Shown: positions 2,613 through 36,523 of the stretch, in pieces
Numbering within the stretch: position 1 is the stretch's first letter
Layout of the letters: each line of letters begins with the position of its first letter
Translations under genes and position numbers: made by a program
The notes under the pieces: generated by a model
What the model saw: the letters and a program-made list of their open reading frames with translations, nothing else
Database searches by the model: none
What the model was told of the DNA's origin: nothing
Assembly: GCA_017649645.1 (NCBI GenBank)
Contig: JAGCGK010000132.1
Location: 1 to 38,835 of the forward strand
Direction of reading: 5' to 3'
DNA length: 38,835 nt
Source: Clostridiales bacterium
GTDB taxonomy: Bacteria > Bacillota > Clostridia > Saccharofermentanales > Saccharofermentanaceae

Positions 2613-4709
2613 TTACTCAGCTGCAGGAGCCTCAGCCTCAGCAGCAGGTGCTTCCTCAACAGGAGCCTCCTCAACTGCAGGTGCTTCTTCAGCAGCAGGA
2701 GCAGCATCTTCCTCAGCGATAGCGTAGATATCCTCATCCTCTGTTACAGGATCGATAGGAGCTACTTCCTTGATGCTGATGGAGATTCTTCTCTGATCCT
2801 TCTTAACATCGATAACCTTAGCCTCGATCTCCATACCTACTGAAAGAACATCAGATGGCTTCTGAAGTCTTACTGTAGAGATTTCAGATACGTGGCAGAG
2901 TGCATCGAGGTTTGGCTCAAGCTGTACGAAAGCACCGAAGTCAGTAAGTCTAACAACTGTACCCTTAACGATAGAACCAACCGGGATTCTCTCTTCGATA
3001 TTGTAGTAAGGATCATCCTCTTCCTTCTTATAGCCCAAGGAGATCTTCTTTGTTTCCTTGTCGAAATCCTTAACGTATACATCAACTTCCTGACCTACGG
3101 AAAGAACATCAGAGGATCTCTTGATTCTCTTCCAGGAAATCTCGGAGTTGTGAAGGAGTCCGTCTACACCGCCGATATCGATGAATGCACCGAAATCAGG
3201 AAGGCTTCTAACGATACCCTTGTAGTGCTTGCCTACTTCGATACCGGACCAGAGAGCGTCAGCCTTTTCCTTACGCTCGTTGGAGATGATAGCACGGTGT
3301 GAACCGGAGATTCTCAAACGATGTCTAGCATCTGTATCCATCTTTGTGATGATAACGTCGATGTTCTGTCCCTTGTAGGACTCGAGATCGATATCCTCAC
3401 CGCCAGCCATCTTAAGCTGTGTCTTGTGGATATATACGTCAATGTTACCTGCGTAGTTACCGATTACACCGTCCTTAACAACGTTTGTGATCTTAAGTGT
3501 AACTGGTGTCTTATTCTCGAAAGCATCCTCGATAGCTTTCTTATGCTTGTCCATATCTACCTGGGACTTAGAAAGGATGATCTCCTTGCCCATATCGGAA
3601 TTACGAATGCTCTTTACGATAGTCGTAACTTCCTGACGCTCTGCAATTGCTTTCTCAAGATCGAAGTCTGGATCATTATCTACTTCTCTTCTTGGAATCT
3701 TTCCTTCGGATTTGTCACGAACATCTACATAAACGTAATCTGCGTCTGCCGAAGTTACAGAACCCTTAACGGTAGCTCCTCTCCTTAGTTGTGGAATACT
3801 ATCGATATAGTCCCCAAAATTGATATCAGTCTGTTCCTGATTCGTCATAACTTCGTTCTCGCTCATCTCGCCGACAACCTCCAAAATAATACATTGAGGC
3901 GTAGAAGCACCAGCTGTTACTCCGACTCTGTCAGAGGAAGAAATTGATCCTTCCTTTATAAGTTTCCTTACTTCAGAGGCGTCAGAAACTAGGTACGTTC
4001 TTACGCAATGACTTCTGCAAATATCAAAGAGTTTACGGGTATTGGAACTGTGCCCTGAGCCTATGACTAACATGACATCAGAATCCATGGATAACTGTAA
4101 AGCTTCTTTTTGCCTGCTTTCCGTCGTAATACATATTGTATCAAAAATGCAAGATTTTGCAATTTGATTTTTGACATTTGCACAAATTTTCTCGAATTCT
4201 ACTGTTGAGAATGTAGTTTGTGACACAATAACGGCACTATCGAGAGGAAACGGAATGTCCGAAATCTCCTCTGCAGAGCTTATTACGAACACTTTGTCAG
4301 CCGGAGCTTCACTACAAATACCGACTACTTCCGGATGACCTTTTGCTCCCGTTACAACTATGTTTTTTCCGTTATCGGCTTGTTCTTTTACGATCTTGTG
4401 TATCTTGTCTACAAACGGACAAGTGCAATCAAGCACTTCGCAATTGAGTTTTTTGAGTTTTTCTTTTACCTCGCAGGTAACTCCGTGTGCCCTTAAAAGA
4501 ACAAGGCTCCCTTCTGTCGCCTCCTCAGGGGAATCGATCAGAATGAAGCCTTTTGAGATCAATTCATTTACAACAAAATCATTATGAGTAAGCTCACCTA
4601 GCATGTAAAGCTTTCTGTCCTTGATCGTCTCAACTGATCTGTATGCAGTATCAACCGCATTCTTGACTCCAAAACAAAAACCTGCCTGCTTAGCGACCTT
4701 TATTACCAT
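2613..4709 (-). CDS. ispH: IspH (HMBPP reductase) fused to a four-domain S1 RNA-binding protein
   Basis: The 698-residue product joins two functions. Residues 1 to about 285 are 4-hydroxy-3-methylbut-2-enyl diphosphate reductase, the last step of the MEP isoprenoid pathway, with the iron-sulfur cysteines Cys12 (GFCFGV), Cys97 (TCPFVDKIH) and Cys193 (DTICITTESRQ), His42, His75, the GHPEV motif (His125, Glu127) and QTTFS. Residues from about 305 to 660 hold four S1 domains like ribosomal protein S1; the last two carry the clearest motifs (SLPDFGAFIDI, RLTDFGAFVQL). The tail is rich in Ala, Glu and Pro. Fusions of this kind are known in Clostridia. Start choice is supported by AAGGAG overlapping the cmk stop, 2 nt between the genes. 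It is the last gene of the ileS-led run, followed by the terminator at 2559-2587. Confidence 0.95.
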   Translation of the reverse strand: MVIKVAKQAGFCFGVKNAVDTAYRSVETIKDRKLYMLGELTHNDFVVNELISKGFILIDSPEEATEGSLVLLRAHGVTCEVKEKLKKLNCEVLDCTCPFVDKIHKIVKEQADNGKNIVVTGAKGHPEVVGICSEAPADKVFVISSAEEISDIPFPLDSAVIVSQTTFSTVEFEKICANVKNQIAKSCIFDTICITTESRQKEALQLSMDSDVMLVIGSGHSSNTRKLFDICRSHCVRTYLVSDASEVRKLIKEGSISSSDRVGVTAGASTPQCIILEVVGEMSENEVMTNQEQTDINFGDYIDSIPQLRRGATVKGSVTSADADYVYVDVRDKSEGKIPRREVDNDPDFDLEKAIAERQEVTTIVKSIRNSDMGKEIILSKSQVDMDKHKKAIEDAFENKTPVTLKITNVVKDGVIGNYAGNIDVYIHKTQLKMAGGEDIDLESYKGQNIDVIITKMDTDARHRLRISGSHRAIISNERKEKADALWSGIEVGKHYKGIVRSLPDFGAFIDIGGVDGLLHNSEISWKRIKRSSDVLSVGQEVDVYVKDFDKETKKISLGYKKEEDDPYYNIEERIPVGSIVKGTVVRLTDFGAFVQLEPNLDALCHVSEISTVRLQKPSDVLSVGMEIEAKVIDVKKDQRRISISIKEVAPIDPVTEDEDIYAIAEEDAAPAAEEAPAVEEAPVEEAPAAEAEAPAAE

Positions 4710-21366: not shown

Positions 21367-22266
21367 TTACTTGACTTCAAGCGGTTCCTCAGTCTTCGCG
21401 AAAACTTCGTCATTCCACCTGAGTTCGATAGTGTAATTTCCGCCTGAGAAGGAACTGACACCTACAAGATCAGCAGAAAAATCAACAACTACTATAACGG
21501 AATCTCTTATCTCAATATCTGTCGAAGCCATTTTCTTGCCGTCTTCATTTCGAAGTACAGCCTCAAACCTGAGATTGACCGGTGTATTAAAATAGAACGC
21601 ACACTGTAAAGCAACCGGATCAGTGAGCTTATTGAGATGCAAAGGAGTAGAAAACATCGGGTCATACCATAATGCTTCTACATAGACATTTTCGAAATAC
21701 TCACTGGACAGATCGACCGGGAAACCCTCATCATCACAGACGTTCAAAGTTGAATACCCGGCTGTCGTAACATCGATTATCTCCTGAAGATTGCTGAACT
21801 TCCACTCTTTGCCGTCTTTTTCCAGATGCAAAACCATGGTTTTCTTCTTGCTCTTCATATCATCGATCTCAGATTTGAATTCACTCACGGTATGATATTC
21901 CGTTGCTTCGAACTTATCGCTAAGATCCTTGAACGAGAGCTTGATCGTACAGTCAGCGCTCTTATTGTCTTCAGCAAGTTCGAGTTCAGAGATCTTCATC
22001 TTACACTTATAAGCAGAATCAAAGATCTCCTGCTGTTCATCAGACAGTTCAGGAAGTTTCAGTTTCTTCAATGAGTTTTCGGACAAAACAGTCAATGGAT
22101 TCGTGGAAATATCTTCCACGAACCCATAAACGTAATCCTCAAGTCTTTCGAATTGACGCTCTCTGATATATTCCGTACAACCCGATGAAACGATCATCAG
22201 TGTTGCTACCAAAACGACAGAGAGTGTCATTCTTAAAAAATTTCTAATACTCTTCTTATCTATCAT
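21367..22266 (-). CDS. Lipoprotein, third of three related tandem copies
   Basis: The 299-residue product has a lipoprotein signal with lipobox VSSGC (Cys30). Its central part includes DGKEWKFSNLQEIIDVTTAG, which corresponds in place and sense to DDDWKVSNASKALKSV and DRRHWELADYEKIFVDL in the two upstream lipoproteins. That pattern, a helical start followed by a Trp-containing strand, suggests an NTF2-like fold. The C-terminus is beta-rich (FSGGNYTIELRWNDEVF). The ATG overlaps the preceding stop as ATGA. No known function is recognised. Confidence 0.82.
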   Translation of the reverse strand: MIDKKSIRNFLRMTLSVVLVATLMIVSSGCTEYIRERQFERLEDYVYGFVEDISTNPLTVLSENSLKKLKLPELSDEQQEIFDSAYKCKMKISELELAEDNKSADCTIKLSFKDLSDKFEATEYHTVSEFKSEIDDMKSKKKTMVLHLEKDGKEWKFSNLQEIIDVTTAGYSTLNVCDDEGFPVDLSSEYFENVYVEALWYDPMFSTPLHLNKLTDPVALQCAFYFNTPVNLRFEAVLRNEDGKKMASTDIEIRDSVIVVVDFSADLVGVSSFSGGNYTIELRWNDEVFAKTEEPLEVK

Positions 22267-23624
22267 TTAACTTCAACTGTAGATTTAACGATCAAATTGC
22301 CGTCCTTATCTTTACACTCAACAGTATAATTTCCTTCAAATTTTTCAAGTCCGCACTCACTTGGCTTGAGATAGCATACAAGGAAAGTCATGCTGCCTGT
22401 TACACTGTCAGTAATGAGAGTATTTCCATCTGCATCATAGAAGTTGTAGTCGAAATCCATATCGGTACCGTAGTCCTGAATGAAAATATTAAATTCAAGA
22501 TATTCAGGTTCTGCACTGTACCAGTCAACAAAGTAAATGTTGCTAACTTGATCGGAATCACCAAACTCTTCTTCAACAATGTTATAACCGAAATCCTTGT
22601 AAGAAGTAGTACATGTATATGTCTCAATAAGATTATCCTTCTCATCGAAAAGACGGAATTCAAAATCATGGTTACCGAAATAGCCCTTGCCGTCTACATA
22701 ATCCGGGAAATCCTTAGCACTGATACTGCAGATAACAAGTCCTTCACCGTCTTCTTCGAGCGTATAAACATAAGCCCAGCATACATAATCACCATCGATA
22801 TAAACTTCGTATACGATATCGTCACTCCAGTCGCCGTCAACCGCACTTGGATCGATAATTACATCAAGTTCGACCATACCGGCATTAGGGAAATCATACT
22901 TACTGTCATTCTTATGTTTATTTCCGCAATCATACCAGTAATAATCACCTGTCATTGCACCAACGTAATCTCCGTCAAAAGAACCGGAAGAAGAAGTAGT
23001 TGTTGCTTCTGTTGTTGTTTCGGTAGTTGAAGGTTCTGTATCGATTACCGGCTCAGTAATATAGTCAATATATTCGAAGTCACTCCATGTACAAACAGAC
23101 TTAAGAGCCTTTGATGCATTGGAAACCTTCCAATCGTCATCATCGTTCTCGAGTTCAAGCTTAACTTCTACATCAGTGGTCTCGTCACCGTCTTCAATGG
23201 CATCAACCATTTCATCGGCATCATAGAACTCACCGTTCTTGATGATATTTTTGTAATCAGCCATTGTAAAAGTTACAGTTACCTCTGCACCGTCTTCGTC
23301 ACCGTCAACAGAATCTTCATCAACCTCGTACTCCATGCTGTCCAAAACTGCACCAAAGATGTTCTTTTCATCTTTATCATAGTCACTTCCGACTACGAGC
23401 TCATCAAACAGATCTGCTGCCTTCTTATCTGAAGAAATCTCTTCAAAACCATCGGCATCAGCCTTCTTGATAGCCTTAGCAAAATTCTCAGCAACCTCAA
23501 CTATTTCATCCTCATCAAAGTCGCCCTTCTTTGATTTCTTTTTGCTCTCTGTCTGGAATGCACTACATCCGAACAATGATGCAGCCATTGTCAAAACAAG
23601 AACAATACTGATAGTCTTTTTCAT
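22263..23624 (-). CDS. Lipoprotein, second of three related tandem copies
   Basis: The 453-residue product has lipobox SLFGC (Cys20), an acidic Lys/Asp-rich start, an N-terminal domain ending with DDDWKVSNASKALKSVCTW, a Thr/Ser linker (about 198-215, TETTTEATTTSSSGS) and two beta-rich C-terminal segments that read like Ig-type domains (YNFYDADGNTLITDSVTG, NYTVECKDKDGNLIVKS). It is strongly acidic overall. It follows the first lipoprotein by 11 nt and overlaps the third by 4 nt. Function unknown, location outside the membrane. Confidence 0.83.
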   Translation of the reverse strand: MKKTISIVLVLTMAASLFGCSAFQTESKKKSKKGDFDEDEIVEVAENFAKAIKKADADGFEEISSDKKAADLFDELVVGSDYDKDEKNIFGAVLDSMEYEVDEDSVDGDEDGAEVTVTFTMADYKNIIKNGEFYDADEMVDAIEDGDETTDVEVKLELENDDDDWKVSNASKALKSVCTWSDFEYIDYITEPVIDTEPSTTETTTEATTTSSSGSFDGDYVGAMTGDYYWYDCGNKHKNDSKYDFPNAGMVELDVIIDPSAVDGDWSDDIVYEVYIDGDYVCWAYVYTLEEDGEGLVICSISAKDFPDYVDGKGYFGNHDFEFRLFDEKDNLIETYTCTTSYKDFGYNIVEEEFGDSDQVSNIYFVDWYSAEPEYLEFNIFIQDYGTDMDFDYNFYDADGNTLITDSVTGSMTFLVCYLKPSECGLEKFEGNYTVECKDKDGNLIVKSTVEVK

Positions 23625-23635
23625 TTTTCCACTCC

Positions 23636-24892
23636 TTACTTAAAATCTGATAATATCATTTTTCCATCAGAATCATAAACAATAAGACATTCAACAGGAG
23701 CTAAACTGTCAACACCCGCTTCATCTGCCTCAACAGTAAGTTCAACATATGAACTTGAACTCTCAGCCTTGAATGTATCACTAGTATAGACTAAGCCGTC
23801 ACTGTCATATAACTCGAAATACATCTCGTAGTCAGTGTTTGACGGCAGATCATACCATATATCATACTCGATAAAATCGCTGTTTGTTGTATACCATCCG
23901 GAAGATATGTAGTAATCATAGAAATCACTGTCACCGAACACAACAGTATTGCTCGACATTGAAGAACCGGAATTTGAACCGACGCTGGAAGACTTTGTTA
24001 CTTCACAGGATTCACGCCAGAACTCGTTATCATTAAAGTCATAACAAACAAAAGTATACGTTCCTGTATCAAGGTATTCACTATTATTAAGAAGATAACC
24101 ATTATATAGAGCATAGTACGTATTACCGTAGAAAGTGTCTTCTACAAATTCGCCCTGATACAGCGGGTCCGGATCATCATTGAAGAAAACCTCATAATAA
24201 CAGTCCTTAGCAAGATTCTTACCATCAGTCTTTATATCAAACTCGATATAGATTATATTTTCAAATTCATTTCCGGAACCGGAGTCATAATCATGAATCC
24301 AGCTGGTCTTAGTAACATAATTTGAATAGTCTACACAGAAGTCGTAATGGAAATCTTTCCATGTGAAAAGATCAACAAAGATCTTTTCATAGTCGGCCAA
24401 TTCCCAATGTCTTCTGTCCATCACGAAAGTAATGTGAACTTTCTTCTCGACTGTTTGGTCATAATCCTTGAGAAGTTTGTAATACTCCTTTGTATTCTCT
24501 GCCTTTCCGGATTTGAAAAGTCCAAGGTAATCAACATGTTTGAAATAAACGTCGATCTCACCTTCTTTTCTGGCATGGGAAGCAAAAGCGGAATTATAGT
24601 CAATCTCGTAAGTTAGCGTACTTCTGATATAGTCACTTATCTTCTTCTGAGATTTGTCCCACATGTCGTTGTCATAGAAAACATCGAGTTTATCCTCTAC
24701 ATCCCTGTCCTTATCCTTGTCAAGGACAGAATTTTCCTCGAAAAACTCATAGTCACCAGCTATGACACTGTCGCAGACTTCAGCCGTGAATTCCCTTACT
24801 TCATCGTCTGCAGTCTCCGTAATGCCCACGCAAGCTGTCAAAGAAGCAAGCATTGCAACGAGCAAAAGAAATGCTATGTATCTAACCTTCAT
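23636..24892 (-). CDS. Lipoprotein, first of three related tandem copies
   Basis: The 418-residue product has lipobox SLTAC (Cys21). The N-terminal domain contains DRRHWELADYEKIFVDLFTW, parallel to TWSDFEYIDY in the next gene, and the C-terminal half is Tyr/Asp/Ser-rich and beta-rich (YEMYFELYDSDGLVYTSDT). A Ser/Gly linker (SSVGSNSGSSMSSNT) separates the two. It is the first gene of a five-gene operon, with an extended -10 promoter and a palindromic leader upstream and AAGGAG before the ATG. The gene diverges from a two-component system. Function unknown. Confidence 0.83.
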   Translation of the reverse strand: MKVRYIAFLLLVAMLASLTACVGITETADDEVREFTAEVCDSVIAGDYEFFEENSVLDKDKDRDVEDKLDVFYDNDMWDKSQKKISDYIRSTLTYEIDYNSAFASHARKEGEIDVYFKHVDYLGLFKSGKAENTKEYYKLLKDYDQTVEKKVHITFVMDRRHWELADYEKIFVDLFTWKDFHYDFCVDYSNYVTKTSWIHDYDSGSGNEFENIIYIEFDIKTDGKNLAKDCYYEVFFNDDPDPLYQGEFVEDTFYGNTYYALYNGYLLNNSEYLDTGTYTFVCYDFNDNEFWRESCEVTKSSSVGSNSGSSMSSNTVVFGDSDFYDYYISSGWYTTNSDFIEYDIWYDLPSNTDYEMYFELYDSDGLVYTSDTFKAESSSSYVELTVEADEAGVDSLAPVECLIVYDSDGKMILSDFK

Positions 24893-25819: not shown

Positions 25820-27628
25820 ATGTACAAAAGTGTGTTGCTTCGTAAAACCATCATACTGTTGTTGGTTGCTTTGTTTGCATCCGCTTTGTTCACGACTTTT
25901 GCATTTACCATTGCAGGTAAATCCGCTACTTATCTTTCACAGACTGACAGATCTAAAGAGCAGATCAATTCTCTTGCGTCTTTTTTCAGTACTTATCCTG
26001 AACTTATAGATGACGAGAAGATTACTGATGCTCTTTTTTCTGATACTTCAATAACGGGTAACAGTATTTTCCTCTTTTCAAAGGACGGAGAACTCGTCTA
26101 CTGCCCTACTAACCCGTCTTCAACTGATTCAAAGTATTTCGACGCTTATATTTCCTACATTCAGGACAAAATGCTCGGCAAGCTCACCTTGGAAAAAAAC
26201 TATGAGAGTATCACGATCGGTAAGAATCTTATCGACAAGACTTTCATTATCCAGCAGCCGGTCTACGTTGAAGGAGAGATACAATATTACATCGTTTCCG
26301 TGACTTCCATTTCAGAGAACAATCAACTCGTAAATAAATTTGTTAATGTCCTTTTGATCTCAACACTTTTCGTAGCATTCGGAATGCTCATTCCGGTTTA
26401 TCTCGTAACCAGAAAGATCGTAGACCCTATCAATTCGATCAATAATATCACAAGAGAATATGCTGCAGGAGACTTTTCCGTACGTGCAAACGAGAATTAT
26501 AAAGGCGAGGTCGGAGAGATCGCCAAGTCATTTAACTATCTTGCCGATCAGCTCTCCAAATCCATTTCCGATCTTACGATCGAGCGTAACAGATTGAAAG
26601 AAGTATTCGATGTCATCACAGACGGAATCGTTGTTGTTGATGCCGATATTAAGCCAATTGTTGTAAATAAAACAATGGATACCCTTTTCGATAAGGTACA
26701 GAAGAAAAACCTGTTTACGGAAAAACTTCAGCTCATACCGTTTGATGAAGTATGGGAAGCTTTCTCCAATGTTGTTCAGACTTCCGAAAACTATGACAAC
26801 ACATTGGAAGGTCCTAACTATGCTTATCATGTTGCCATCTTCCCTAAGTATGATATCGACAACGTAACCTGTATCGGTGCTACCGGATTCTTCCGAGATA
26901 TTTCCGAAGAATTGAAACTTGAAAGAACCAGAAAAGATTACGTTGCAAACATATCTCATGAGCTTCGTACACCTCTTCAGACTTTGCGCGGACTTATCGA
27001 GCCATTGTCTGACGGAATGGTTAAAAAGGAAGAAGACCGTATGCGTTACTACGGCATTATCCTCCATGAGACCATGAGACTTTCAAGACTTATCGACGAC
27101 ATGCTTGAGCTTTCAAAGCTCCAGTCCAGAACACTCGCATTTAAGACTTTCCCATTTGACTTGAATCAGCTCCTTATGGAAGTCGAGACTAAGTTCATGC
27201 CGGTAATGAAAGATGCTGAATTGAACTTTAAAGTTTCGTTTAATACCGGCGAACTCCCTACTGTTATGGGTAATCCGGACCGAGTTGAGCAGATCCTTGT
27301 AATACTTATGGATAACGCCAAGAAGTATACTCCTGCAGGCGGTTCTATAACTATCGCTGCTGAGTATCACGAAGATACGGATAAGGTTTTCGTATCAGTT
27401 ATCGATACGGGACAAGGTATCCACGAATACGATATCAATCATATATTTGACAGATTCTTCAAAGCAGACCGTGCAAGAGGTAAAAAAGGTACGGGTCTGG
27501 GTCTTGCTATCGCCAAAGAGCTTCTTACTTACATGGGTGAAGATATCACCGTTGACAGTACCTACGGCGAAGGAACCACATTCACGTTCACTTTGAAGAG
27601 AGTCGGAGCTCAGAATACATGGTTCTAA
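25820..27628 (+). CDS. Membrane sensor histidine kinase
   Basis: The 602-residue kinase has a membrane helix near the N-terminus, an extracellular region of about 130 residues, a second helix (FVNVLLISTLFVAFGMLIPVY split by short breaks), a HAMP linker (INNITREYAAGDFSVRANEN), a PAS-like domain (about 255-360), then the HisKA box with His380 (ISHELRTPLQ) and an ATPase domain with DNAKKYTPAGG, DTGQGI and GTGLGLAIAKEL. It resembles the PhoR/WalK group. The start is taken as ATG at 25820, which is 10 nt from GAGG and overlaps no coding; a TTG at 25814 inside the regulator's end is less likely. It overlaps rluF by 10 nt. The signal is unknown. Confidence 0.93.
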   Translation: MYKSVLLRKTIILLLVALFASALFTTFAFTIAGKSATYLSQTDRSKEQINSLASFFSTYPELIDDEKITDALFSDTSITGNSIFLFSKDGELVYCPTNPSSTDSKYFDAYISYIQDKMLGKLTLEKNYESITIGKNLIDKTFIIQQPVYVEGEIQYYIVSVTSISENNQLVNKFVNVLLISTLFVAFGMLIPVYLVTRKIVDPINSINNITREYAAGDFSVRANENYKGEVGEIAKSFNYLADQLSKSISDLTIERNRLKEVFDVITDGIVVVDADIKPIVVNKTMDTLFDKVQKKNLFTEKLQLIPFDEVWEAFSNVVQTSENYDNTLEGPNYAYHVAIFPKYDIDNVTCIGATGFFRDISEELKLERTRKDYVANISHELRTPLQTLRGLIEPLSDGMVKKEEDRMRYYGIILHETMRLSRLIDDMLELSKLQSRTLAFKTFPFDLNQLLMEVETKFMPVMKDAELNFKVSFNTGELPTVMGNPDRVEQILVILMDNAKKYTPAGGSITIAAEYHEDTDKVFVSVIDTGQGIHEYDINHIFDRFFKADRARGKKGTGLGLAIAKELLTYMGEDITVDSTYGEGTTFTFTLKRVGAQNTWF

Positions 27629-28341
27629 ACGATCAGGAAGAAATCAGGATCAACAAGTACATCTCCTCATCAGGTTATTGCTCCAGAAGAGAAGCAGATA
27701 AGCTTATCGAAGAAGGAAAAGTAACTATTGACGGTGTTGTCGCTGTTAACGGAAGCAAGGTGTTCCCGGGACAGACGGTTCTCGTGGACGGAGAACCTGT
27801 TGTTCCTACAGATGACCATCTTTATATCGCGTTAAATAAGCCTTTGGGAATTACATGTACGACTGATAAGCGTGATAAAGACAACATCATCGATTTTCTC
27901 GGTTTCGAGGAAAGGATCTTCCCTATTGGACGATTAGATAAGAATTCTTCAGGTCTTATCCTTCTTACCAACGACGGTTCCATCGTTAATAAGTTGCTTC
28001 GTGCCGAACACGGACATGAGAAAGAATACGTCGTTAAAGTCGATAAGAAGATCGACGATGAATTCGTAAGGAAGATGAAAAACGGTCTTCCTGTTTTGGA
28101 TCAGATCACTCTTCCCTGCAAGGTTACTCCTACAGGTCCTTACACATTCAAGATAATACTGACTCAGGGGCTTAACCGTCAGATAAGAAGGATGTGCGAA
28201 TATTTAGGCTACCGCGTAGTCAGCCTCAAAAGAATCCGTTTTATGAATATACTCCTGGGTGATATGAAACCGGGTGAATACCGTTATCTCAACAACAAGG
28301 AGAAGCAAATACTTCTTACAAATCGTGCTCGCCTTCCTTGA
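27619..28341 (+). CDS. rluF: 23S rRNA pseudouridine synthase, RluF-like
   Basis: The 240-residue protein has an N-terminal S4 RNA-binding domain (about 9-65, RINKYISSSGYCSRREADKL) and a catalytic domain with Asp107 in PIGRLDKNSSGLILLTNDG. The segments AEHGHEKEYVVKVDKKI and LTQGLNRQIRRMCEYLGYR closely follow the Escherichia coli RluF pattern (pseudouridine at 23S position 2604) rather than RsuA. The ATG lies inside the last codons of the kinase gene, so translation is probably coupled to it. The 3' end overlaps the convergent GH2 gene by 26 bp with no terminator between. Confidence 0.88.
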   Translation: MVLNDQEEIRINKYISSSGYCSRREADKLIEEGKVTIDGVVAVNGSKVFPGQTVLVDGEPVVPTDDHLYIALNKPLGITCTTDKRDKDNIIDFLGFEERIFPIGRLDKNSSGLILLTNDGSIVNKLLRAEHGHEKEYVVKVDKKIDDEFVRKMKNGLPVLDQITLPCKVTPTGPYTFKIILTQGLNRQIRRMCEYLGYRVVSLKRIRFMNILLGDMKPGEYRYLNNKEKQILLTNRARLP

Positions 28342-31300
28342 ACTTAAGAATGAAACTCTCTTTATAAGTTACATTCTTCTTAAGCGGAAGACTTGATGTG
28401 TTTGTCCTTGTTCTCTCGATCTCTTTGGAACAGAAATCCAGGAACAATTCGCAGTATTCATTATTCATCAGCTGCTCCTGATGTAGGAACTCATTCATCT
28501 GCTCAGGAGAATAAGGAAGTACGGTAAACTCGAACTTGTTGTTTCCTTCCCTTACAACTCTGATCTCATCACCAAGTTTATTGGTAAGAACAAGAGTAGA
28601 TGTATCAGTATGTGAGCTGTTCTCGGCTGGCCTGGCATACGGATGATATATCTCATTTGCCTTGGCCTGGAATATGCCGAATCTGGTTGCATTCTTACGG
28701 TCATAGTAAGACTCACCCGGACCTCTTCCGTACCACTTACAGATAACATCATTCTGATTGATCGGAACACGAAGACCGTATCTGACCATATCGTACTTTG
28801 GAGTAAAGTGAAGCGTGATCTTAAGTTCGTTATTATGCATCTCATAACAGATGATTACTTCACCCTTCATAGCAAATGATTTATATCTTGAGATAAGCGT
28901 AAAGACATCGTCGGTTACGCTGTAGTTGCAGCCTGCAAACTGAAGTGAATCCTGTATTCCTTCGTAATCGTTTTCGCGAGAGAAGATAGTTTTCGCGAGG
29001 ATAAAAGACTTGTCTGTTCTGTCGATGTTTGAAGGACATCTGTAAAAGCTCGGAAGGAAGCCGCCGTTAAGGAAATCAAATCCGCCTACGGAAATGTGAT
29101 TAACAGAACCTGTCTTACGATCAAACGCGATCTTGATGTCATCCTTACCTACGATGACACCCTTAGGAAGAGCTATGACATCGATCCTCTGATCATCAAG
29201 TTCCTCTTCCTGCATGATCTCTGTAGCAGATGATTCACCTTCGTCAACGGAAAGATCTGTAATGATCTCATTCTTTTCTTCAGAAGATTCAGAAGCTTCA
29301 TTATTCTCTTCAGAAGAAAGCGGCTGTTCGCTCTCAGACGGAAGGAACGGAAGACCGCTGTCATCAAGAAGACGCTTAACGGTAAACGCATTAAGAGAAC
29401 CGACTGTCTTACCGGTCTTGATAGGGCTGGCGACCTCATCAGTCAATACTTCCTGGAAGAAAGCAACCTCATATCCTTCTTTGGAATAGAAGCTGTCCTT
29501 AGCAAGTTTCAGACTTATATCAAATATCAACTCGTGCGAGAGGGCTTCGTTATACATGGTAATAAACTTCTCATTACCATCTGCCCAACCGTCTTTAAGA
29601 TACTTCTCGACATCAAGATTAAACTTAAGCGTTCTAGTACCGTAAGGCTCGATCTCGGAAACAAGTCCGTTACCGAACATCAATACATTACCGCCGAGAA
29701 TGAGTTTCCATTCGAGGATCATCTCATCCGTAAAAGCAAACGGATGGATATTACGCATCGTAAGTGTTGTCGGATTATTAGGATCCGGGAAGATGTTGAC
29801 CATCTCGCACTGCTTCTTGATATCAAAATAGATAGGATGAGGCTTACGCTCACTATCGACGATACCCTGACCGATACTGCTTCCTACACGGGTCTTTCCA
29901 CCCTCGAGATCGGCCTGATGGATCCACTTATAATCTGCATCATCATCATCAAAATTCGTTCTTCCAGGAATAGTCTTAAACAGATTGACTCCTGTCTTAT
30001 TCTTTCCGAAAATATACGCACGATCAAGGCAGATATCTTCCCAAGGACCGTAAACATTTCCAGCTTCACTCGGGAACGAAGGAAGATCTGAAATGTCGCC
30101 CTTCTGGTCCTTCTCGCAGTACCACGGCCTAGCGTCATCTACTACTTCACACTGATTCTTGATCGTCTTGCATCTGTTGTAATCATAGTTGTAGTTCGGG
30201 AATCCCCAGCAAACGATACTCGGGTGATTCATATGCGCTTCAACATAATCAAACATGTATCTTGAATCCGACATTGCGAATACATAGATACCGTACTGAT
30301 CACAAAGATTAAGTAGCATATCATTAGCCGGGAATGAAGAAACGATTATACCGTTGATTCCGCAGCGCTTCATAAGAACGATATCCTGACGCATCCTGCT
30401 GATAGGAATAGCGATACCATTCTGAGGATCAAACTCATAATATCTGGTAAGCATCAACGGGATTCGTCTGTCGTTGATATTAAGCTTATCAAGAATAACT
30501 TCAGCAGTTCTGAAACCGAACCTTCTTTTCTTCGCACAGATGGTCCTTCCTTCACTGTCGAGAAGTTCCAATACAACATCATACTGAACAGGAGTAGCAT
30601 CAGACCACTGAGCTACGTGAACAGCAACTGCCTGGGATTTAAATACTTCAGATGAGTTGGCATCAACTGTGCCCTCCATCTGCTTCTCGATATTAAGTTT
30701 AACGAACGGAAGATTATAAGGATCATAATCTCCTCTTGCTTCAAGGATAGAAGTCCTTACCGAGAAAGGCATCATATAGTTTGTATGATTCGTGATCTTA
30801 ACATCCATGAAGATCATATAATCTCCACGTGAGATCTTTGCTACATTTTTTCTCTCAGTTCCCTTTTCATCCAATGCCAACTGATCGACATATGTATTAG
30901 GGATACTGCTGCACTTGATATGAAGATTACTCATCTCAAGAAGTGACTCAAAAGTAAGAGAAACAGGTCTGAAAATACCGCTGAAACCGAAGTTTGCCAG
31001 TTCCTTGATTATCTTACCATTCTTATCTCTGTCGTATCTGTTTATTATGACAACGATCGTGTTGATTCCTACCTGTGCAACAGGAGACAAGAGAAGTCTC
31101 TTGTTAGTAAGGATAGAATGTGATGACGTAACGAGTTTACCGTTTACATATACCTCGAAACTACCTGTAATACCTGAAGCTTCAAAGTAGATAGCTCTCT
31201 CCAGGTCTTCTTCCGAAAAGACGGTCGTTGTTCTGTAGATACCGATCTCATCTTCTTCAGCAGATGTGGAGTTATAGTAGTTTTTGTTATTGATACTTGA

Positions 31301-31609
31301 ATCTCTGGATTCCTTGTCGTTTTCGAGAATTTCAGGAAAATCATAAAGAAGATTCTGCGGAAGGCCATAGCCTTCTGTCTGCCATGTAGAAGGAACGTTT
31401 ATGAGATTCCAGTCACTGTCATCAAAATCAGGTGTATCAAAACCCATCGGGATCTCGTTCTCGGATCTCGCAAGGAAGAATTTCCATGTATTAAGAGGCC
31501 TGGAATACGGAGAATCGATCTTACCGAATTCCGGCATCTCCCTTTCAGAGAAAATATAATCAAAAGACTCATACGGCAAAAAGCAGTCATTTGAATAGGT
31601 AAATTCCAT
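28316..31609 (-). CDS. LacZ-type GH2 homologue with degenerate active site
   Basis: The 1097-residue protein follows the LacZ layout: jelly-roll domain with VPSTWQTEGYGLP, FGFSGIFRPVSL, Ig-like domain, TIM-barrel segment, then a beta-sandwich C-terminal domain with GRGPGESYYDRKNATRFG. It has no signal peptide and is probably cytoplasmic. The key positions are altered. WSLGNES with the acid/base Glu of LacZ reads WGFPNYN (468-474), placing Tyr473 there; SHYP, RHEHHP and VVDEANIETHG positions read SSFP, TRYYEFDP and VFAMSDSRYMF. A Glu515 in FPSEAGN might stand for the nucleophile, but no CEYAHAMGN is seen. An acidic Ser/Glu insertion lies at about 755-803. There is no frameshift, so the protein seems to be maintained for binding or another chemistry. 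AAGGA precedes the ATG. Confidence 0.88.
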   Translation of the reverse strand: MEFTYSNDCFLPYESFDYIFSEREMPEFGKIDSPYSRPLNTWKFFLARSENEIPMGFDTPDFDDSDWNLINVPSTWQTEGYGLPQNLLYDFPEILENDKESRDSSINNKNYYNSTSAEEDEIGIYRTTTVFSEEDLERAIYFEASGITGSFEVYVNGKLVTSSHSILTNKRLLLSPVAQVGINTIVVIINRYDRDKNGKIIKELANFGFSGIFRPVSLTFESLLEMSNLHIKCSSIPNTYVDQLALDEKGTERKNVAKISRGDYMIFMDVKITNHTNYMMPFSVRTSILEARGDYDPYNLPFVKLNIEKQMEGTVDANSSEVFKSQAVAVHVAQWSDATPVQYDVVLELLDSEGRTICAKKRRFGFRTAEVILDKLNINDRRIPLMLTRYYEFDPQNGIAIPISRMRQDIVLMKRCGINGIIVSSFPANDMLLNLCDQYGIYVFAMSDSRYMFDYVEAHMNHPSIVCWGFPNYNYDYNRCKTIKNQCEVVDDARPWYCEKDQKGDISDLPSFPSEAGNVYGPWEDICLDRAYIFGKNKTGVNLFKTIPGRTNFDDDDADYKWIHQADLEGGKTRVGSSIGQGIVDSERKPHPIYFDIKKQCEMVNIFPDPNNPTTLTMRNIHPFAFTDEMILEWKLILGGNVLMFGNGLVSEIEPYGTRTLKFNLDVEKYLKDGWADGNEKFITMYNEALSHELIFDISLKLAKDSFYSKEGYEVAFFQEVLTDEVASPIKTGKTVGSLNAFTVKRLLDDSGLPFLPSESEQPLSSEENNEASESSEEKNEIITDLSVDEGESSATEIMQEEELDDQRIDVIALPKGVIVGKDDIKIAFDRKTGSVNHISVGGFDFLNGGFLPSFYRCPSNIDRTDKSFILAKTIFSRENDYEGIQDSLQFAGCNYSVTDDVFTLISRYKSFAMKGEVIICYEMHNNELKITLHFTPKYDMVRYGLRVPINQNDVICKWYGRGPGESYYDRKNATRFGIFQAKANEIYHPYARPAENSSHTDTSTLVLTNKLGDEIRVVREGNNKFEFTVLPYSPEQMNEFLHQEQLMNNEYCELFLDFCSKEIERTRTNTSSLPLKKNVTYKESFILKFKEGEHDL

Positions 31610-34476: not shown

Positions 34477-34546
34477 ATTTTTATCCGCCTTACTGATTAT
34501 TGACATAAGTATAAAGTATAAGACAAGAAAAAACAAAATCTTGCGT

Positions 34547-34552
34547 TATAAT
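34547..34552 (+). promoter_or_regulatory. Candidate -10 box of the GH3 gene
   Basis: Perfect TATAAT, 30 bp before the GH3 start, followed by GGAGG at 34572-34576. No -35 at standard spacing, so the call is weak. Confidence 0.35.
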
Positions 34553-34582
34553 CTCATTAGCAATTATTATCGGAGGCTTAAA

Positions 34583-36523
34583 ATGAAAAACAGAAAGATC
34601 ATTTCTGTTGCCCTTGCATGCGCGATGATCCTTTCATTGTCTGCATGTAACAAAACAGATAAAACTACTGAAACAGGTTCCACAACAGCCGAAACGACTG
34701 AAGCATCAAGTTCCGAGTCCACATCCGCTGAGACTTCGGAAACAACTGAAGACTCGAAGCCTTCTGAGACTTCCGTCAGCGATATTGAACTTTCCAACGT
34801 TCAAACAATGACACCCGAAGAGCTCGTAGCTACCCTGACATTAGATCAGAAAGCAGCACAGATGGTTCAACCGGCTCTTTATAACATCACGGAAAACAGC
34901 ATGAAGACATACGATTACGGATCCGTTCTGTCAACTTACGGCCAGATCCCTAATCCGAGCGCCGAGGAATGGTGCTCCATCGTCGATTCTTTCCAGGACG
35001 GAGCTTTGGCTTCTGATGCCAAGATTCCGTATATCTACGGTCAGGACTCTGTTCACGGAGTTAATTACGCCAGCGGAACGGTTATATATCCACAGAACAT
35101 CAATATCGGAGCAGCCAATGATATCGAGCGTACTATCCTCATGGGACAATACGTAGGTTCTGATATCATGAGGACTAAGATGATCCTCAACTTCTCACCT
35201 TGCGTTGCAGCCGCACAGGATCCACGTTGGGGAAGAACGTACGAGAGTTATTCTTCCGATCCGGCTCTTATCAAGGAACTGTCCGTGGCTTATGCAACAG
35301 GTCTTCTGGACGAAGGAATAGTCGTATGTGCGAAGCATTTTATCTGTGAAGGATATACTACCTACGGCTCAGGCGAAAACCCTGCTATCGGAATGATCCT
35401 TGACAGAGGTAATGCCGAAATTTCCGAAGATGTCATCAATGAAAATCTCGCTATCTATCAGGCTCTCGTTGATTCAGGTGTACAGAGCATAATGATCTCC
35501 CACTCTGCCCTTAATGGAACGAAGATGCACGAATACGGCGAATACATCATGAAGATCAAGAACGAGATGGGCTTTGAAGGATTTATACTGTCAGACTGGG
35601 ATTCTATAGAGAATTGCTCAGGCGCTACACTCAAAGACAATGTCGTCCTTTCAATTAACGCGGGCATTGATATGCTGATGGAAGCAGATCACTTCGAAGA
35701 ATGCAGAAAATACATCGTTGAAGCAGTAAACGAAGGTCTGATCTCACAGGAGCGAGTAGACGACGCTGTAACAAGGATCATCAGAGTAAAGATGGAGGCG
35801 GGACTTTTCGAAGATCCGTATCTTTTGAATAAGACTCCTTCATTTGAATGGAACTGTGATGAATCAATAGAAAACGCCAGGATCCTTGCCGAGGAGTCAT
35901 TGGTACCGATCAAGGACGGAGGCAATCTTACCATCAAGGAAGGAAGCAAAGTCTTCGTTGCAGGCCCTGCAGCAAATGACATGGGTGTAATGCTCGGAGG
36001 CTGGTCATATATCTGGCAGGGTATTTCAGATGAAGAATACGGTGATAAGGTATTCCCTGATTCACCTACGATACTCGAGGCGCTAGAGGAAGCTTCCAAG
36101 GACGGAAACTTCACGATCGTGACAGACGAATCGGAGATCTCTTCGTGTGACATGGTCTTGCTCTGCCTGGGTGAGATGCCTTATTCAGAATGGTACGGAG
36201 ATGCTGAAGATCTCTCTATAACAGGAGATCTGGGTCTGGACGGAAACAAGGAAGCCATTGATCTTGCTAAGAAATCCGGACTTCCGACAACTACTCTTCT
36301 TATCTGCGGCAGAAACGTTATCATAGAAGATTATATCAATGACTGGGATTCGGTACTTATGTGCTATCTGCCGGGTTCCGAGGGTGGTAATGCGATCTGT
36401 AACGCATTAACCGGAAAGTGCAAATACAAAGGACATCTTCCTATGCCTTACTACAAATCAGAAACGGATATTGATTCAGGAAACGTTTGGCTCCCATTAG
36501 GCTACAGCGCTTTGGATAATTAA
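34583..36523 (+). CDS. Lipid-anchored GH3 family glycoside hydrolase
   Basis: The 646-residue product hydrolyses beta-linked sugars at the cell surface, probably a beta-glucosidase. It has lipobox LSLSAC (Cys22) and a Ser/Thr/Glu linker (about 24-75), then the GH3 N-terminal barrel with IPYIYGQDSVHG, SPCVAAAQDPRWGRTYES, CAKHF and the nucleophile Asp338 in ILSDWDS. The GH3 C-terminal domain follows (about 440-646; AGPAANDMGVMLGGW). Start at 34583 is set by GGAGG; an upstream ATG at 34541 has no site. The stop overlaps the convergent gene by 4 bp. The sugar specificity cannot be read directly. Confidence 0.93.
   Translation: MKNRKIISVALACAMILSLSACNKTDKTTETGSTTAETTEASSSESTSAETSETTEDSKPSETSVSDIELSNVQTMTPEELVATLTLDQKAAQMVQPALYNITENSMKTYDYGSVLSTYGQIPNPSAEEWCSIVDSFQDGALASDAKIPYIYGQDSVHGVNYASGTVIYPQNINIGAANDIERTILMGQYVGSDIMRTKMILNFSPCVAAAQDPRWGRTYESYSSDPALIKELSVAYATGLLDEGIVVCAKHFICEGYTTYGSGENPAIGMILDRGNAEISEDVINENLAIYQALVDSGVQSIMISHSALNGTKMHEYGEYIMKIKNEMGFEGFILSDWDSIENCSGATLKDNVVLSINAGIDMLMEADHFEECRKYIVEAVNEGLISQERVDDAVTRIIRVKMEAGLFEDPYLLNKTPSFEWNCDESIENARILAEESLVPIKDGGNLTIKEGSKVFVAGPAANDMGVMLGGWSYIWQGISDEEYGDKVFPDSPTILEALEEASKDGNFTIVTDESEISSCDMVLLCLGEMPYSEWYGDAEDLSITGDLGLDGNKEAIDLAKKSGLPTTTLLICGRNVIIEDYINDWDSVLMCYLPGSEGGNAICNALTGKCKYKGHLPMPYYKSETDIDSGNVWLPLGYSALDN

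Follow-up and report, generated by a model that had tools for sequence, protein, structure and literature searches.

LacZ-type members of glycoside hydrolase family 2 (GH2) are beta-galactosidases whose chemistry requires an acid/base glutamate (E461 in the numbering of Escherichia coli LacZ), a nucleophilic glutamate (E537) and two residues, E416 and H418, that we take to be ligands of the active-site metal; N102, D201, H540, F601 and N604 presumably contact the sugar. Relatives of glycosidases that have given up catalysis are described in an excerpt of PMC7828330, which covers pseudoglycosidases from animals and a parasite (GH18 YKL-39, the GH1-like klotho and the GH33-like CyRPA) as well as a bacterial pseudoesterase domain, and in an excerpt of PMC6549527, according to which leaf beetles have inactive GH28 proteins that work in one pathway with their active counterparts. 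In the excerpt of PMC5145203, which deals with GH2 architecture, the terms 'inactive', 'pseudo' and 'not conserved' do not occur, and the literature found, searched mostly at record level, describes no LacZ-type bacterial pseudoenzyme. Here we analyse pseudo-LacZ, a protein encoded in a 38,835-nucleotide stretch of a Clostridiales bacterium of the family Saccharofermentanaceae (assembly GCA_017649645.1, contig JAGCGK010000132.1; hereafter the window). That this protein is both dead as a LacZ and maintained is close to certain.

As in the cases excerpted from PMC7828330, glycosidase kinship is kept and catalysis lost, and the known cases there have a new binding role; pseudo-LacZ differs from those animal and parasite proteins in being bacterial, derived from GH2, without a signal-peptide-like start and near-universal in a bacterial family. 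With the leaf-beetle proteins of PMC6549527, as excerpted, it shares being a retained pseudoenzyme that is important to its owner, whereas about half of the genomes with pseudo-LacZ lack any further GH2 barrel (E ≤ 1e-20) among the matches listed.

By descent, pseudo-LacZ belongs to the GH2/LacZ superfamily. Pfam finds Glyco_hydro_2_N, Glyco_hydro_2, Glyco_hydro_2_C, LacZ_4 and Bgal_small_N in the 1097-residue protein, which makes it a five-domain LacZ relative, although LacZ_4 and Glyco_hydro_2 (the immunoglobulin (Ig)-like domain) score slightly below the curated cut-offs. Its top match among beta-galactosidases in the PDB has an E value of 2.8e-41, and HHalign aligns the profile of the family with that of LacZ at 100% probability over 888 columns. 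An earlier note on this DNA had described an intact frame with conserved N- and C-terminal domains, as is indeed the case. The parts of the gene are as follows (all on the minus strand).

28316..31609, minus: pseudo-LacZ coding sequence, 1097 residues, frame intact, without a signal-peptide-like N-terminus
30953..31489, minus: domain 1, jelly-roll (Glyco_hydro_2_N), residues 41-219, with the equivalents of N102 and D201 lost (Pfam, alignment)
30509..30952, minus: domain 2, Ig-like (Glyco_hydro_2), residues 220-367, with a dN/dS (ratio of non-synonymous to synonymous substitution rates) of 0.007 against the nearest relative
30275..30490, minus: front part of the TIM barrel, still matched by Pfam, residues 374-445
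30425..30442, minus: YYEFDP (residues 390-395) in place of LacZ RHEHHP, R356 becoming Y390 and H357 becoming Y391
30329..30340, minus: SSFP (residues 424-427) in place of SHYP, H391 becoming S425
30188..30208, minus: WGFPNYN (residues 468-474) in place of WSLGNES, the acid/base E461 becoming Y473
29900..30112, minus: remodelled back of the barrel, residues 500-570, with the nucleophile segment deleted
29444..29761, minus: domain 4 (LacZ_4), residues 617-722, 25.1 bits against a curated cut-off of 27.3 (Pfam)
29165..29407, minus: acidic low-complexity linker, residues 735-815, variable in length and under the weakest constraint (dN/dS 0.26)
28436..29143, minus: domain 5 (Bgal_small_N), residues 823-1058 (Pfam)

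The similarity breaks off within the barrel. The Glyco_hydro_2_C match covers positions 6-77 of 302, to which a whole-genome search adds a weak stretch at 116-165; by contrast, a catalytic LacZ from the same bacterial order (L128) covers 300 of the 302 positions. The highest score from the NCBIfam LacZ models is 298.9 bits where the cut-off is 999, so that no LacZ beta-galactosidase cut-off is reached, and in the four leading models the best stretch ends at residues 444-448, just ahead of the catalytic half.

We aligned 69 distinct homologues from the window's family (49 from genus g1, 14 from g20 and two each from g17, g18 and g19) with nine LacZs, and in a second alignment added 11 further GH2 frames, one of which was already among the nine. 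The 69 sequences come from fetched loci, which represent some of the 113 matching genomes; rows shorter than 1,000 residues and identical rows were dropped. Both catalytic glutamates and both metal-site residues of LacZ beta-galactosidases are missing from the window protein. In the MAFFT alignment with E. coli LacZ, E461 corresponds to Y473 and E416 to R450, and H418 and E537 fall in gaps; R356, H357 and H391 are replaced as listed above. The residues contacting the sugar have gone as well, with N102 replaced by L88, D201 by A205, F601 by S578 and N604 by Q581. The same holds across the family: the E461 column has Glu in none of the 69 sequences (Tyr in 43, one Asp, and Arg, Lys, Phe, Trp and others in the rest), and the columns of E537, Y503, H540 and H418 are gaps in all 69. 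Remnants of the old site are few. Glu is found at 416 in one sequence, from g18; His at 391 is retained in all 14 g20 sequences, one of the two from g18 and one of the two from g19; and Asn at 460 persists in 8 of the 49 g1 sequences. HHalign confirms the match of E461 to Tyr and leaves E537 unmatched. The replacement of the acid/base Glu in WGFPNYN and the changes to the histidine and metal-site segments, both proposed in the earlier note, are thus borne out, and no other Glu is seen at the acid/base position by sequence comparison. The stronger point, on which that note is silent, is that the nucleophile segment has been lost: about 58 LacZ residues surrounding the nucleophile are left unpaired in the family alignment. 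Because MAFFT and HHalign disagree between the nucleophile and residue 588, single-residue assignments there, such as the MAFFT-dependent W568 to G521, are unsure.

Across the family, most active-site residues have gone and many structural ones persist. On the basis of only nine LacZs, 92 columns are invariant. The family keeps 38 of these at 90% or more, including 18 with Gly, Pro or Trp; another 33 are lost, at less than 10%, and the remaining 21 are intermediate. By the list of active-site residues assumed here, the lost columns include ten from the active site (N102, D201, R356, H357, E416, H418, E461, Y503, E537 and W568). In domain order, in length and in these 38 columns, pseudo-LacZ thus resembles the LacZ-type beta-galactosidases (E. 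coli LacZ, PDB 6s6z and PDB 3bga); it differs from them in having no acid/base Glu, nucleophile Glu, metal-site residues or galactose-contact residues, and in the deletion of the nucleophile segment.

A shifted Glu that would keep the enzyme active can be rejected. Within the barrel (368-612), acidic residues make up at least 80% of the column at D380, D394, D409, D437, D508, D525, D529, D567 and E602, the last at the very end, and at two positions of mixed Glu and Asp (404 and 611). Beyond E602 and the mixed columns there is no conserved barrel Glu, and HHalign agrees. A different enzyme, in which the old pocket has been rebuilt as a new active site (for example around H564, C527, Y390 and D525), is a separate matter. 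At 25 positions the family is invariant yet non-ancestral, several of these residues are polar and they cluster mildly near the old site; the remodelled barrel back contains the family-invariant G517, G521, W523, D525, C527, H564 and D567; and the barrel is strongly constrained (dN/dS 0.020). However, no new acid pair is conserved, and the fully invariant barrel aspartates (D409, D437, D525 and D567) are present in 8-12 of 12 catalytic rows and look structural: D409, D508, D525 and D567 are common to at least 11 of these rows, D437 to 8 and D394, already, to 6. With some 58 residues missing around the nucleophile, the barrel itself may be incomplete. We consider a new enzyme improbable.

Pseudo-LacZ is a near-universal gene of its family. 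A homologue (E ≤ 1e-30) is present in 113 of 115 family genomes, from all five genera, in genomes that are 64-100% complete, with one locus per genome among the matches listed, some of them split across contigs. The frame is open over at least 1,000 residues in 105 of the 113. The two genomes without a match are G022 (90% complete), in which a new search gave only a weak GH2 match, and G065 (78%), in which it gave nothing. Elsewhere in the order, the window protein matches 2 of 73 genomes (E ≤ 1e-18; G182 and G183), and the frames there (L128 and L129) retain the catalytic residues. A class-wide search with the remodelled segment matched 11 of 391 genomes (that of the window among them), all from its genus, a count that applies to the segment query only, which the other genera of the family may escape. 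Two marginal matches were found besides: G412, a frame of 108 residues, and G437, the frame of which has neither the LacZ catalytic pattern nor a match in the profile scores. We infer that the bacteria of this family live in the gut, because related contigs are labelled as metagenome-assembled genomes of uncultured Clostridia or Clostridiales, one of them from horse faeces.

Selection on the gene is strong. Against its nearest relative, pseudo-LacZ has an overall dN/dS of 0.031, with 0.011 in domain 5; in the same pair, the neighbouring genes give 0 (response regulator), 0.021 (RsuA-like protein), 0.027 (histidine kinase) and 0.027 (H_PPase). Three housekeeping-type neighbours are under purifying selection of much the same strength. 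The GH3 gene of the window (dN/dS 0.110) is a poor control, because the GH3 pair is only 67% identical and has a synonymous divergence (dS) of 2.2. Catalytic residues lost and purifying selection acting across species are what is expected of a maintained pseudoenzyme, and the suggestion of one made from the window alone holds up well. The acidic insertion of some 50 residues noted at the same time is real, as the linker at about 735-815; it is not a new domain. This segment evolves fast and varies in length (17-60 residues in the nine LacZs compared, 21-106 in the 69 family sequences), and is therefore an enlarged form of a pre-existing linker.

Some copies are damaged, as they would be if pseudo-LacZ were a decaying pseudogene or an assembly artefact. 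Eight of the 113 are partial or split. The copies of G031, G034, G080 and G114 have a piece that starts 10 bases or fewer from a contig end, those of G012 (L092) and G107 (G107:C71) are split into two frames inside one contig, possibly by a frameshift or an assembly error, and nine genomes have one or two stops within the match. In five of the latter, read as frames (L004, L007, L008, L029 and L045), the stop lies at the very end, the frame being open to query residue 1091-1094. With 105 of 113 frames of at least 1,000 residues, a dN/dS of 0.031 and five genera, the selection and distribution data rule decay out, and we give it virtually no weight.

The distribution also bears on whether pseudo-LacZ works together with an active LacZ or other GH2 enzyme of the same cell, as its subunit or decoy. 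Such a partnership would suit the tetrameric state of E. coli LacZ and the finding that, in the nearest pair, domain 2 of pseudo-LacZ is under the tightest constraint. However, by hand count and leaving the catalytic status of the barrels aside, another GH2 barrel (E ≤ 1e-20) is present in at least 59 of the 115 genomes among the matches listed; in 55 of the 113 genomes that carry pseudo-LacZ there is no second one, and only G061 has one of full LacZ strength (E 2e-79), the others reaching 1e-32 or weaker. At the 1e-20 threshold, the assembly from which the window comes yields no further GH2 barrel. As the second barrel is patchy and absent from that assembly, pseudo-LacZ is not simply the partner of an active LacZ; this role is largely rejected and, in our estimate, very improbable. 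The comparison of 113 with 59 out of 115 indicates that the dead copy has been retained more widely than other GH2 barrels.

We somewhat favour a cytosolic, non-hydrolytic LacZ pseudoenzyme that lost its chemistry before the family diversified and has been kept as a core protein, probably with a binding or scaffold role. Under this model, a LacZ-type GH2 would have lost beta-galactosidase chemistry before the diversification of the family and then been kept in the cytosol as a core protein, one locus per genome. A strongly hydrophobic N-terminus is absent from 68 of the 69 family proteins, the sole exception, L077, beginning at an upstream in-frame ATG. The multi-domain LacZ shell would be retained and would work through binding, in an oligomer that serves as scaffold or regulator; the old pocket may have had its floor rebuilt with new conserved residues that hold a partner or a ligand other than a galactoside; the acidic linker would serve as a flexible tether; and the target would be a housekeeping process rather than the breakdown of lactose or other galactosides. 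A mild hint that the floor of the pocket was reused may lie in the new invariants: among the 19 that can be aligned to E. coli LacZ, 5 are within three residues of an old active-site residue, compared with 73 of 877 columns (P = 0.016). Several points weigh against the model. This P value is weak, rests on an assumed active-site list and was computed after the alignment had been viewed; past the nearest pair, dN/dS depends on dS values above 1.5, near saturation; a protein without the known catalytic residues may still carry out another chemistry; and the upstream neighbours of the gene differ between genera, across gaps of 87-331 bp.

The genomic context was compared at 40 loci. Two neighbours in the window are relevant here.

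27619..28341, plus: pseudouridine synthase with an S4 domain (RsuA-like), tail-to-tail neighbour, the 3' end of which overlaps that of pseudo-LacZ
34541..36523, plus: GH3 with a signal-peptide-like N-terminus, not adjoining pseudo-LacZ in the window

The RsuA-like gene and pseudo-LacZ are adjacent and tail to tail in 25 of the 40 loci and overlap at their 3' ends in 5 of these; in the window the overlap is 28316-28341. Directly upstream and co-directional, GH3 is found in 15 of 40 (14 from g20 and one from g18); the other upstream neighbours are H_PPase in 11 (5 of them divergent), a 382-residue protein without a Pfam match in 6 and others in 8. The RsuA-like, kinase and regulator genes lie on the strand opposite to pseudo-LacZ, which is probably a transcription unit of its own. 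Given this, and given upstream genes and gaps that vary as they do, no pathway can be read from the context.

The histidine kinase and response regulator nearby would fit a cytosolic sugar sensor that still binds a galactoside or another glycan and signals to a partner, and known pseudoglycosidases such as YKL-39 bind glycans (excerpt of PMC7828330). Yet both genes are on the other strand, and in 15 of the 40 loci the RsuA-kinase-regulator block does not follow immediately downstream (among these, L076 has it one frame further and L057 ends there). A near-universal gene among patchy GH2 barrels is also unlike a catabolic sensor. A sugar sensor is less likely because the galactose-contact residues of LacZ have been lost too, and we regard it as unlikely overall. 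The sensor or scaffold role raised in the earlier note was a guess, of which the galactoside-sensor version is weakened by this loss.

Apart from this locus, the window encodes a 610-residue protein with four DUF4214 stretches (699-2531), a 698-residue fusion of LytB to three S1 domains (2613-4709) and two adjacent proteins of 453 and 418 residues (22263-24892) that have no Pfam match and evolve fast between relatives, the first with a start that by eye resembles a lipoprotein signal.

A second dead LacZ is found in a sister family, f3. In 16 of its 23 genomes there is a LacZ-like frame from which the catalytic pattern has gone (L101, L102, L103, L153-L162, L164-L166 and L170-L172, L163 being excepted): 13 copies form one clade, that of G039 is partial with a pattern like that of G048, and those of G057 and G179 are very divergent. 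Constraint is weaker than in the window's family (f1), with dN/dS of 0.13-0.19 in three pairs. By hand count, pnp adjoins the f3 dead LacZ in 9 of 16 loci (two on the opposite strand, one separated from it by a short frame); at several of the remaining loci a contig end hides the pnp side, and the neighbours in L153 do not include pnp. Pfam matches to S15, PNPase, P5C reductase, FtsK, NUDIX and RNase H were obtained in L171 or L159 only, the neighbours at the other f3 loci being assigned by clustering with the genes of these two.

In both of our trees, the f1 group stands beside the catalytic L128, and the f3 group lies within the catalytic LacZs, beside L163 and L130. The second tree includes 13 of the 16 f3 dead copies and 13 of the 69 f1 sequences; G039, G057 and G179 were omitted, L097 was dropped as a near-copy, and rows L100, L104 and L132 of the first tree were not carried over. 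Forcing the f1 and f3 groups into one clade is 71 log-likelihood units worse (approximately unbiased test, P = 0.00056), a test to be read with the long branches, the many rows of odd letter make-up and the fact that the groups had already been seen apart in the first tree; long-branch attraction would unite the two groups, not part them. A single origin of the f1 and f3 dead LacZs is thereby rejected, and f3 seems to have evolved its dead LacZ independently. A bolder proposal, which we put forward as a tentative possibility, is that the LacZ shell was recruited twice, independently, in sister families as a non-enzymatic housekeeping protein. The f3 copy lies beside pnp, which rpsO often precedes, in an operon-like core cluster; this would link the dead LacZ to RNA turnover, cell growth or another basic process. 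If the proposal is true, one of the best-known enzyme folds has given rise to a new class of cellular protein.

Annotation by homology is likely to label these genes as beta-galactosidases. As pseudo-LacZ is impossible as a beta-galactosidase by the known mechanism, predictions of sugar use from such genomes could be wrong. A dead glycosidase that is more widely retained than the other GH2 barrels of the same genomes, and apparently evolved twice in neighbouring families, offers a natural experiment on the non-hydrolytic uses of the LacZ scaffold; and with a dead shell near-universal in one family and a similar case in a related one, the LacZ shell probably has a second cellular job.

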